Assembly (NCBI GenBank): GCA_015233785.1 | Contig: JADFWT010000007.1 | Span: 1-52,955, forward strand | DNA length: 52,955 nucleotides | Direction: 5' to 3' | From: Magnetococcales bacterium | Lineage (GTDB): Bacteria; Pseudomonadota; Magnetococcia; Magnetococcales; JADFWT01 | Part shown: in pieces, positions 49,068 through 52,955 of the stretch | Position numbering within the stretch: the first letter of the stretch is position 1 | How the letters are laid out: every line of letters starts with the position of its first letter | Notes under the pieces: generated by a model | Databases searched by the model: none | What the model saw: the letters and a program-made list of their open reading frames with translations, nothing else | Told to the model about the DNA's origin: nothing | Program-made: the position numbers and the translations under genes

Positions 49068-51239
49068 TCAACCGTGCATCCGTTCGGCCCCAAACACCCC
49101 CTTCAGAGCTCGAATCTTAAGTAACATCGCCTGCAACTGCTCACGACCCTCCACTTCAATATCAAGCAGATAAGAACAGGGGCTGCGATCCCGATCCTGA
49201 ATGTGCGCCTTCAAGATCTCACCTCGGGCCTCCTGAACCACATGGCTCAAAGCTGCCAAGGTCTTCCGATAGTGGGAGACGATCACCCGCACACGGGCTA
49301 CATGGTAATGCCCCGCCGCCTGAGGCCACTCCACATCCTCTACCCAACGCTCGGGCTGGTCGGCAAAACGGGCCAAATTGGTGCAATCCACCTGGTGAAT
49401 GGTAATCCCCTTGCCGGTCACCACAATACCCACGATCAGATCGCCGGGAATAGGGCTGCAACAACGCGCCGCTCGCACCACCACATCGGACAACGCATTA
49501 GGCAGGCTCAGCGACTGAACCCCCTCCTTGCGCCCAGCCGCCGGCAAACTACGGTGGGATTGGCGACCCGCCTTAAGGATGCTCTCCGGAAAAACCGCCC
49601 CCAACACATGGATGGCCGACATCTTCGAAGCCCCCACCAGGGTCAACATCTCCTCCACATCAGGTTGTTTGAGACGCTCGGCCGCCTGCTGCAATCCGGC
49701 TTCGGTCAACTTGGCACCATGACCCACCTTGCGGGTCTCACGCTCCAACATCTCCCGACCCAGAGCAATGAACTGCGTCCGCTCCTGCTTCCGATGCCAA
49801 CGGGCAATGCGGTACTTGGCCTTTCCGGTCACCACAAACTGCAACCAGTTGGGATTGGGATGCTGACGCTCCGCCGTGATGATCTCAACCGTGTCGCCGG
49901 TGGCCAGCGGTGCCTTTAAAGGGGCCATGCGGCCATTGATACGGCACCCCTGGCAGTGGTCCCCTACCTCTGAATGAACCGCATAGGCAAAATCAACCGG
50001 TGTCGCCCCCCGAGGCAAGGTGATAATCCGGCCCTGTGGCGTAAAAAGATACACCTCGTCGGGAAACAGATCCACCTTGACGTTCTGTAGAAACTGCACC
50101 GGATTGTCGGCACTCTGATGGGTCTCCAGAAGCTGCTGAAGCCAAGCATAACCCGACTCCGCCTTGGGCTTCTTGGAGGAGATGCCCCGCGCCTTGTAGA
50201 TCCAATGAGCGGCCACGCCACTCTCGGCAATGCGGTGCATCTTCTCGGTGCGGATCTGAATTTCGATGCGATTACCGAAAGGACCAAACACCACCGTATG
50301 CAGAGAGCGATAACCGTTGCTCTTGGGTAGCGCAATGTAATCCTTGAAACGGCCCGGAATGGGACTAAACTCGCTATGGATCATGCCCAACACCCGATAA
50401 CAGTCGGACTTTTTCTGCACAATGATCCGGTATGCGATAAGATCGTACAACGCATCCAGGGTGGTTTCACGACGGGCCAGCTTGTGCCAGATGGAGTAGA
50501 GATGCTTGATACGCCCAAAGACCCGCGTCACCGGAATATCATACGCCGACAGCTTCTTCTCAATAATCGCCACCACCTTGCGCACCACGTCCTCACCGCC
50601 ACGACGCATATCCTGAACCCGACGCGCCAGATCGGCATGCTCCTCAGGATGAATGAGTCGAAAGGCCAGATCCTCCAGTTCGCTCTTGATGCGATGAACA
50701 CCCAGACGGTGGGCAATCGGGGTATAAATCTCCAAAACCTCGCGGGAGAAACGTACCGACGCCTCAGAGGGTGGATACTGGACCGCACGGCGCATCTCAT
50801 GCAGCGAAAGCGCCAAGCGAACCAATATGACTCGGACATCCTGCGCCATGGCCAGAACCATTTTACAGAACTCCTCCGGCTGGGACTCAACCATACCCTG
50901 AGAGGTCAAACTCCCAAGACGATTAACCCGCTCTACCAAATCGGCCGTAGCGTCCCCAAACTCCTGACGCACCTCCTCCAGCGATACGTCACCCCCAGCC
51001 ACCAGATTAGCCAGCGCGCCCGCCGCCACCGATACCGTATCCAGACGCAACACCACCAACGACTCGGAAATAGCCTCTGGTGCCAACGCCTCGTCTGATG
51101 GCAACGCCTCAGCGTGGGCTTCAAAAAAAGCCTCAAGACGAAGACGCAGTGTGGGGTCAGCCTCCGGATGGTAGGACCGGATCTGCTTAAAAAGGCTTTT
51201 CCACGAACTCAAGGTGTGTACCCCTTTGCGAATCGGCAC
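49068..51239 (-). CDS. RelA/SpoT family (p)ppGpp synthetase with degenerate hydrolase domain
   Basis: This 723-residue protein makes (p)ppGpp, the stringent-response alarmone. The pseudo-HD domain (about 50-200) lacks the hydrolase ligands: at the HD position it reads A77-N78, E81/D82 are Ala/Gly, and D144 is Leu. The synthetase domain (about 235-345) is intact, with FGRIKHLYSI, LDALYDLIAYR, RFKD (297-300), NGYRSLHT and the catalytic Glu326 in IEIQIRT. TGS (about 385-445) and ACT (about 645-720) domains follow. The RFKD motif is that of bifunctional Rel/SpoT, not the EFDD of RelA. GTG 51239 is the start, with GGCGG before it. The gene follows rpoZ by 12 nt; the symbol is left blank because relA and spoT types are mixed. 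Confidence 0.92.
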   Translation of the reverse strand: MPIRKGVHTLSSWKSLFKQIRSYHPEADPTLRLRLEAFFEAHAEALPSDEALAPEAISESLVVLRLDTVSVAAGALANLVAGGDVSLEEVRQEFGDATADLVERVNRLGSLTSQGMVESQPEEFCKMVLAMAQDVRVILVRLALSLHEMRRAVQYPPSEASVRFSREVLEIYTPIAHRLGVHRIKSELEDLAFRLIHPEEHADLARRVQDMRRGGEDVVRKVVAIIEKKLSAYDIPVTRVFGRIKHLYSIWHKLARRETTLDALYDLIAYRIIVQKKSDCYRVLGMIHSEFSPIPGRFKDYIALPKSNGYRSLHTVVFGPFGNRIEIQIRTEKMHRIAESGVAAHWIYKARGISSKKPKAESGYAWLQQLLETHQSADNPVQFLQNVKVDLFPDEVYLFTPQGRIITLPRGATPVDFAYAVHSEVGDHCQGCRINGRMAPLKAPLATGDTVEIITAERQHPNPNWLQFVVTGKAKYRIARWHRKQERTQFIALGREMLERETRKVGHGAKLTEAGLQQAAERLKQPDVEEMLTLVGASKMSAIHVLGAVFPESILKAGRQSHRSLPAAGRKEGVQSLSLPNALSDVVVRAARCCSPIPGDLIVGIVVTGKGITIHQVDCTNLARFADQPERWVEDVEWPQAAGHYHVARVRVIVSHYRKTLAALSHVVQEARGEILKAHIQDRDRSPCSYLLDIEVEGREQLQAMLLKIRALKGVFGAERMHG

Positions 51240-51251
51240 ACAGCCGCCGAA

Positions 51252-51833
51252 TTACGAGTCGCTGTTATCTTCCGCCGCCTCGGATGCCACATCGTTGGCC
51301 GGCTCGCCTAACGCCGCGCCAGCCGAAGCCTCATCAGCAACGGCTTCTACTCCTGGGGCCGCTTCCGCTTCGGTCGTGGCGTCTGGAGCCGGTGCGGCCT
51401 CCGTCTCTGCTTCTGGAGCAGCTTCAGCGGCTGGTGCAGTTTCCGCTTCCGGCGCGACCTCGGCCTTTGGAGCGGCCTCAGCCTTTGGAGCGGCTTCCTC
51501 TTTAGAGGCAGCAGCCTTAGACTGGCCAGTTGTGGCCGTCAAGATGGCCTTCACCGCTTCCTCTTCAGCCGCCTCAGCATTGGCGGCAGCAGCCTGCTCC
51601 GCCTGACGCTCCTTATTCTCCTCCTCCAACCCAACCGTGTTCATCAGCTCCGCCAGATCCACGGTGTTGGCTCCAATCTCACGTAAAGCAAGCACCGTAT
51701 CCTTATCATTGGTCTCGCCAATGGTGGACTCTTCACCCTTGGCCAGTTGACGTGCCCGGCGGGCTGCCATAATCACCAAATCAAATCGATTCGGTACATG
51801 CTCAAGACAATCTTCAATGGTTACACGAGCCAT
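51252..51833 (-). CDS. rpoZ: RNA polymerase omega subunit with long Ala/Glu-rich tail
   Basis: Omega aids assembly and stability of RNA polymerase and contacts ppGpp in its site 1. The core is typical: [20 protein letters not shown] and [11 protein letters not shown], then [15 protein letters not shown] (about 1-75). The rest, about 110 of 193 residues, is a low-complexity tail of Ala, Glu, Pro and Asp with tandem AAPKAE/APEAE-type units. Usual omega is 70-130 residues, so the tail is very long. The gene is followed by relA/spoT in the classic gmk-rpoZ-spoT order. Confidence 0.94.
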
Positions 51834-51928: not shown

Positions 51929-52564
51929 TTAACGATCCCTACCGCCAGGTTCTGCATTCAATATGGCCTGGGCCACCTCACCAACCCGGCGGGTACGAAG
52001 CCGCTCGGCCTGGATAATGGCGATCAACTGCTGGCACGCCTGCTCCAAATCATCATTAACCACCATGTAGTCGTACTCATCCCAATGGGACATCTCGGAA
52101 CTGGCCTGATCCATGCGATGGTTGATCACCTCGGCATCATCCTGGCCACGCGCCTCCAAACGGCTACGCAAAACCTCCAACGACGGCGGTGCAATAAAAA
52201 TACTCACGACATCCTGGTCGGCCATCTTCTCACGAACCTGACGCGCGCCCTGCCAATCAATATCCAACACCACGTCAGAGCCTGAAGCCAACATCGACTC
52301 CACCGACTCCCTAGAGGTGCCGTAGCAGTTGCCAAACACCTCGGCCCACTCCAAAAAATTCTCCTGAGCCACTTCGCGCTTGAACTGCGCCATATCGGTA
52401 AAAAGGTAGTCCTTGCCATGCACTTCGCCCGGACGCGGCAAGCGGGTGGTGGTAGAGATAGAGGGTTGGATATTACGCATCCGCGACATCATGCGATGCG
52501 ATAAGGTGGTCTTGCCGGCCCCGGATGGGGCAGATAGAATCAAGGCTACTCCTCGCTTATGCAT
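51929..52564 (-). CDS. gmk: Guanylate kinase
   Basis: Guanylate kinase converts GMP to GDP. The 211-residue protein has the P-loop SAPSGAGKTTL, the GMP-binding STTTRLPRPGEVHGKDY, and LEWAEVFGNCYGTS with the DIDWQGARQV element. ATG 52564 is preceded by GGGGAG at about 8 nt; upstream codons MDRSGGVEK belong to the leader. It lies between yicC and rpoZ, and supplies the GDP substrate pool for ppGpp. Confidence 0.96.
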   Translation of the reverse strand: MHKRGVALILSAPSGAGKTTLSHRMMSRMRNIQPSISTTTRLPRPGEVHGKDYLFTDMAQFKREVAQENFLEWAEVFGNCYGTSRESVESMLASGSDVVLDIDWQGARQVREKMADQDVVSIFIAPPSLEVLRSRLEARGQDDAEVINHRMDQASSEMSHWDEYDYMVVNDDLEQACQQLIAIIQAERLRTRRVGEVAQAILNAEPGGRDR

Positions 52565-52594
52565 TTTCTCTACTCCCCCCGATCTATCCATTCG

Positions 52595-52955
52595 TTACTC
52601 AATATTCTGCACCTGCTCGCGCAATTTTTCCACCAACACTTTGATCTCTACACCCAAACGAGACACCCGCGCATCCTGGGACTTGGAACAGAGGGTATTG
52701 GCCTCGCGGTTGAGCTCCTGACAAAGAAAATCCAACCGCCGCCCCACCGGTTGATGTTGATCCAACACCCCACTCACCTCACCCAGATGGACACGCAGTC
52801 GATCCAACTCTTCGCTGAGATCAAGCCGATTGAGCAGATAGACCTGTTCCTGGGCCAATCGATTGTCATCCAGCGTCGACTCCTCCACCAACATTTTCAA
52901 ACGGGTACGCAGTCGCTCCTCCACCGCCTTCTGTACCTGAGGCAGACGATCGATC
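52595..52955 (-). CDS. YicC/YloC family endoribonuclease, C-terminal part (runs off right edge)
   Basis: Only the last 120 or so codons are in the window, open at the right edge. The sequence carries the family's C-terminal features: RLDLSEELDRLRVHL, a glutamine-rich turn DQHQPVGRRLDFLCQELNRE, and SRLGVEIKVLVEKLREQVQNIE at the end. YicC proteins are RNases acting on small RNA or as stress-induced ribonucleases. The position before gmk-rpoZ-rel is conserved. The stop is 30 nt from the gmk start. Confidence 0.93.
   Translation of the reverse strand, partial: IDRLPQVQKAVEERLRTRLKMLVEESTLDDNRLAQEQVYLLNRLDLSEELDRLRVHLGEVSGVLDQHQPVGRRLDFLCQELNREANTLCSKSQDARVSRLGVEIKVLVEKLREQVQNIE

Follow-up and report, generated by a model that had tools for sequence, protein, structure and literature searches.

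Introduction

The stringent response is commonly presented as the work of one bifunctional Rel, or of RelA together with a bifunctional SpoT. RelA of beta- and gammaproteobacteria is a long RSH with a pseudo-hydrolase (HD) domain, an intact synthetase (SYNTH) domain, TGS and ACT; it is characterized by an ExDD motif and a longer H-loop, and is usually accompanied by a bifunctional SpoT. In E. coli, the dead HD domain of RelA regulates synthesis (PMC8012599). A full division of labour is already known from the Moraxellaceae, in which Acinetobacter combines RelA[hS] with SpoT[Hs], the hydrolase-only SpoT having a shortened linker (PMC9974481). Atkinson et al. 2011 (PMC3153485) list Rel[HS], RshD[HS], divRel and pbcSpo for Magnetococcus MC-1, RshD being the second long RSH of deltaproteobacteria and of this strain. 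No description of a split outside the Moraxellaceae, Magnetococcales included, was found in the open-licence literature searched.

The window analysed here, a stretch of 52,955 nucleotides from a Magnetococcales bacterium (contig JADFWT010000007.1), encodes a long RSH which, judged by its residues, is very probably the synthetase-competent, hydrolase-dead [hS] half of a divided long-RSH system, with (p)ppGpp being removed by a separate [Hs] long RSH. The system resembles that of the Moraxellaceae in its pair of long RSHs, of which one combines a dead HD with a live SYNTH and the other a live HD with a dead SYNTH (activities here being read from residues), and in the shortened linker/Core of the hydrolase-only copy. 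It differs in belonging to another clade with independent losses, in a synthetase with RxKD, no extended H-loop and a place at the rpoZ locus (that of spoT in E. coli), and in a hydrolase devoid of the AH/helical domain.

Domain architecture and residue states of the window protein

The gene (49068..51239, minus strand) has a GTG start and codes for 723 amino acids, and its product scores 603 bits against the NCBIfam model spoT_relA (TIGR00691) over residues 54-716, the cut-off being 499. Together with Pfam, this identifies a long RSH with the order HD-SYNTH-TGS-AH/RIS-ACT: an HD_4 domain at residues 56-181 (50697..51074; 94 bits), a RelA_SpoT synthetase domain at 242-351 (50187..50516; 142 bits), a TGS domain at 396-455 (49875..50054), a helical AH/RIS domain at 467-561 (49557..49841) and an ACT/RRM domain at 647-720 (49080..49301), all on the minus strand.

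Residue states were called from alignments with RSHs of the PDB (solved Rel/RelA structures), relatives, and SpoT and RelA of E. coli. The initial annotation held that all alignable HD ligands are replaced and that the N-terminal Arg/His positions are absent, and the alignments bear out both statements. H53 and H77 are replaced by A, D78 by N, E81 by A, D82 by G, D144 by L and N148 by E, and R44 is missing; the HDxxED motif has degenerated to A-N-L-V-A-G at residues 77-82 (50994..51011, minus strand). A displaced set of HD ligands was looked for elsewhere in the protein by alignment and Pfam and was not found, HD_4 being matched once, at residues 56-181. All 12 catalytic or substrate residues checked in the synthetase domain are present, namely R243, K245, D266, those of RFKD at 297-300 (50340..50351, minus strand), K306, Y310, H314, E326, Q328 and R330. 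The catalytic Glu, equivalent to E323 of RelSeq, lies in the EIQIR motif at residues 326-330 (50250..50264, minus strand). The retention of RFKD, a bifunctional-type RxKD, had been annotated correctly. The protein agrees with bifunctional Rel[HS]/SpoT[HS] in domain architecture, RxKD and gmk-rpoZ synteny, but its HD active site is lost; it agrees with RelA[hS] in the dead HD and intact SYNTH, but has RFKD instead of ExDD.

The structure model of the window protein (pLDDT 84) retains the fold of the Rel NTD (7oiw; TM 0.89 on target, rmsd 2.5), which suggests that the dead HD domain is retained as structure. By analogy with E. coli RelA, a regulatory role of the dead domain may be inferred for Magnetococcales.

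Loss of hydrolase ligands across Magnetococcales

An orthologue of the window gene was obtained from 44 of the 48 Magnetococcales genomes sampled. H77, D82, D144 and N148 are lost in all 44, while the 12 synthetase residues are intact in 43, the remaining orthologue (the one without RxKD) differing only by a change of the R of this motif to C. As the HD losses are common to all orthologues, whose reading frames are open and whose synthetase is conserved, an effect of chance or sequencing can be set aside, and the predicted loss of the hydrolase is an order-wide trait rather than a peculiarity of the window gene. The identity within the group is 0.51 for the pseudo-HD domain and 0.74 for SYNTH. 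This profile is the signature of RelA (0.46 and 0.72) and is unlike that of bifunctional Rels (0.56 and 0.54).

Upstream of the gene and on the same minus strand lie rpoZ, for RNA polymerase omega (51252..51833), gmk, for guanylate kinase (51929..52591), and, at the edge of the window, part of a yicC-like gene (52595..52924). The order yicC-gmk-rpoZ precedes the gene in most genomes whose contig extends far enough. The order in E. coli is gmk-rpoZ-spoT, and the Magnetococcales gene thus occupies the ancestral rel/spoT locus, as the initial annotation had recognized. The rpoZ frame of the window codes for 193 amino acids, which makes this omega about double the size of its E. coli counterpart; its C-terminal tail is long and rich in Ala and Glu.

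A Rel with both HD and SYNTH intact was met on a contig of about 4 kb in one Magnetococcales MAG (G041:C185; L008/L198). It groups with sequences of Bacillota and Spirochaetota, and the contig is probably a contaminant.

A predicted hydrolase-only partner

Profile searching revealed another long RSH, about 640 amino acids in length, at full length in 40 and as contig-edge fragments in 2 of the 48 genomes. All 27 genomes with a completeness of 90% or more and a contamination of 5% or less have it, G041 contributing just a contig-edge fragment. The HD residues H53, H77, D78, E81, D82, D144 and N148 are present in 40/40 partners. In an alignment of 17 sequences these residues and an eighth, the loop Arg, do not vary; the Arg shifts by one column in a larger alignment. 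The synthetase site is altered in all 40, with D264 replaced by P, RxKD by HxRD, K304 by R and E323 by N, S, T or K. The architecture is HD-pseudoSYNTH-TGS-CTD, without the AH/RIS helical domain that the window protein possesses, and the SYNTH-TGS linker measures 37 amino acids as compared to about 50, a change in the same direction as that reported for the hydrolase-only Acinetobacter SpoT (PMC9974481). The partner was not found in about 351 other sampled Pseudomonadota genomes, where the next best match scored 275 bits against at least 1036 for the partners. Both halves occur in G010, a genome assembled as a single contig, where they lie at 285 kb and 3149 kb. A comparison of the neighbours of the partner gene gave no informative conserved cluster.

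Conservation is strong in the partner's dead synthetase domain as well (identity 0.65), which has invariant residues of its own, e.g. PxPRHxRDYxNAPRxNG (L145-L185). This conservation suggests that the domain still binds something.

The initial annotation called for a separate ppGpp hydrolase, either a second RSH or a MESH1-like enzyme. For the order this need is answered by a dedicated hydrolase-only long RSH in 42/48 genomes, which is not a MESH1-like protein; in the window's own assembly no such gene was found. Small HD proteins are also scattered among the Magnetococcales genomes, and in some relatives these could hydrolyse ppGpp too.

The assembly of the window (G000) is 72% complete, and at this completeness it yielded neither the hydrolase-only partner in the profile search nor any HD_4 protein besides the window gene. 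The weak match of the partner profile to G000:C65 (E 0.035) proved to be a homoserine dehydrogenase, matched via its ACT domain. The partner is likewise missing from G014, G025, G030, G047 and G044. Five of these six genomes are 57-76% complete and the sixth, G044, is 96% complete with 6% contamination, which makes incomplete assembly the simplest reason for the missing gene; the window species is inferred to carry the partner in its unassembled 28%. Another reading is that the window lineage has no long hydrolase and that its gene is a stand-alone synthetase, with the alarmone being removed by a small alarmone hydrolase, a Nudix-type enzyme or dilution. The empty searches of G000, the HD proteins of about 200 amino acids in several relatives, and the HD protein of the partner-less G044 agree with it. 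It is improbable nevertheless, as the assemblies without a partner are, but for one, at most 76% complete, and the partner is present in all genomes of good quality in the order.

G000 further encodes a protein of 372 amino acids (C298; L002:934-2052, minus strand) that has a RelA_SpoT domain but lacks HD and may also make alarmone. Similar proteins of about 360-430 amino acids occur in many genomes of the order and are possibly the divRel of Atkinson et al. 2011.

Independence from beta/gammaproteobacterial RelA

The RSH tree was built without the HD columns. In this tree, the synthetase-only proteins of Magnetococcales form one clade (support 100) within the proteobacterial Rel/SpoT half, apart from beta/gamma RelA, and constraining them to group with RelA costs 109 log-likelihood units and is rejected (AU p = 9e-6). 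The α6-α7 H-loop has a median length of 12 amino acids, as in Rel, against 17 in RelA; the exception within the order is the presumed MC-1 orthologue (G010; L022/L187), whose pseudo-HD H-loop carries an insertion of about 43 amino acids, unlike the remaining Magnetococcales. A single clade at yicC-gmk-rpoZ, separate from RelA, indicates that the hydrolase was lost independently, and the independent route to a synthetase-only enzyme proposed in the initial annotation is thereby supported.

That the window gene is a true beta/gammaproteobacterial RelA, inherited or transferred, with the HD loss already known, is consequently very improbable: the domain order and the decay of HD beside a strongly conserved SYNTH are alike, but the tree rejects a common origin of the loss, the motif is RxKD and not ExDD, the H-loop is not extended, the gene occupies the rel/spoT rpoZ locus, and its companion is hydrolase-only instead of SpoT[HS]. 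Hardly to be expected, either, is a degenerate HD domain that still hydrolyses ppGpp or another nucleotide through a rebuilt metal site, since the kept fold of the model and the D at position 78 in 21/44 orthologues stand against the absence of H77, D82, D144 and N148 from all of them, and the wide range of replacements at position 77 (A, V, L, I, S, T, M) speaks for drift and not for a new conserved site.

RxKD fails as a reliable mark of hydrolase activity. The converse rule, by which ExDD would mark a lost HD, is rejected by a Chloroflexi Rel (L079) with ExDD and an intact HD. This Rel is the nearest neighbour of beta/gamma RelA in several trees (support 98-99), a placement that bears on the origin of RelA and rests on one long-branched sequence.

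Complementary pairs beyond Magnetococcales

A Deferrisomatales genome contains a dead-HD Rel with RxKD at gmk-rpoZ (L046) and, besides it, another long RSH in which the loss is reversed. In Deferrisomatia, the hydrolase-only copy is found in 11/12 genomes, always with intact HD residues, and the HD domain of the resident Rel is decayed to graded extents, with a single change in L241 (N148D) and in L242 (D82E), 2-6 changed positions in others, and 7/8 in L251. In eight further genomes of Desulfobacterota, each with two long RSHs, the site losses are likewise complementary, the HD changes being partial. When Desulfobacterota are added to the tree, at least 5 changes of HD state are needed, a count that is approximate because some Deferrisomatia scored as having lost the site have just 1-2 changed positions.

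That duplication of long RSHs would always end in a complete split is contradicted by two genomes, G447 pairing [HS] with a SYNTH-mutated copy and G453 pairing [HS] with [hS]. The second long RSH of the former (L305, Lachnospiraceae) has an intact HD, E323K and an altered G-loop Arg, and that of the latter (L307, Peregrinibacteria) has a dead HD with RxKD.

The hydrolase-only copies magH and defH are grouped with support 99 in one tree. This grouping disappears on addition of the Desulfobacterota copies, where a single clade of hydrolase-only copies is not rejected (AU p = 0.285); on account of the long branches, neither a one-clade nor a several-clade reading of these copies is safe.

Conclusions

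In the division of labour proposed here, the RSH of the rpoZ locus would synthesize (p)ppGpp, as homology suggests on starved ribosomes, and its HD domain would persist as a folded, catalytically dead and regulatory part. Removal of (p)ppGpp in Magnetococcales would have passed to the separate [Hs] long RSH, which has all the hydrolase ligands and has lost the synthetase site. A single two-way enzyme would in this manner have given way to one that makes the signal and one that breaks it down, a split separate from the E. coli case. The activities of both RSHs and the dependence on ribosomes are predictions from residues and homology.

The [Hs] partner is probably RshD, to judge by copy number and taxon. 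For MC-1, Atkinson et al. 2011 (PMC3153485) give both copies as [HS], whereas the residues examined here favour Rel[hS] and RshD[Hs]; [hS]/[Hs] would accordingly seem the better labels for Magnetococcus than the published [HS]/[HS].

In Magnetococcales the proposed division extends through the whole order, and it is met again in Desulfobacterota, where hydrolase sites stand at successive stages of decay. By comparison one can test in what order the events took place, whether an inactive HD domain has to be kept, and what part RxKD and ExDD play. It is proposed, tentatively and at somewhat less than even chances, that hydrolase-only long RSHs of the RshD type are one ancient lineage which several phyla acquired or kept, and that the resident Rel of the rpoZ locus then lost its hydrolase independently each time; the loss would be complete in Magnetococcales, in progress in Deferrisomatia and partial in other Desulfobacterota, a staging put forward with the same reserve. 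If true, the division into maker and breaker would be a repeated outcome with living intermediates, to which the RxKD/ExDD switch would be irrelevant.
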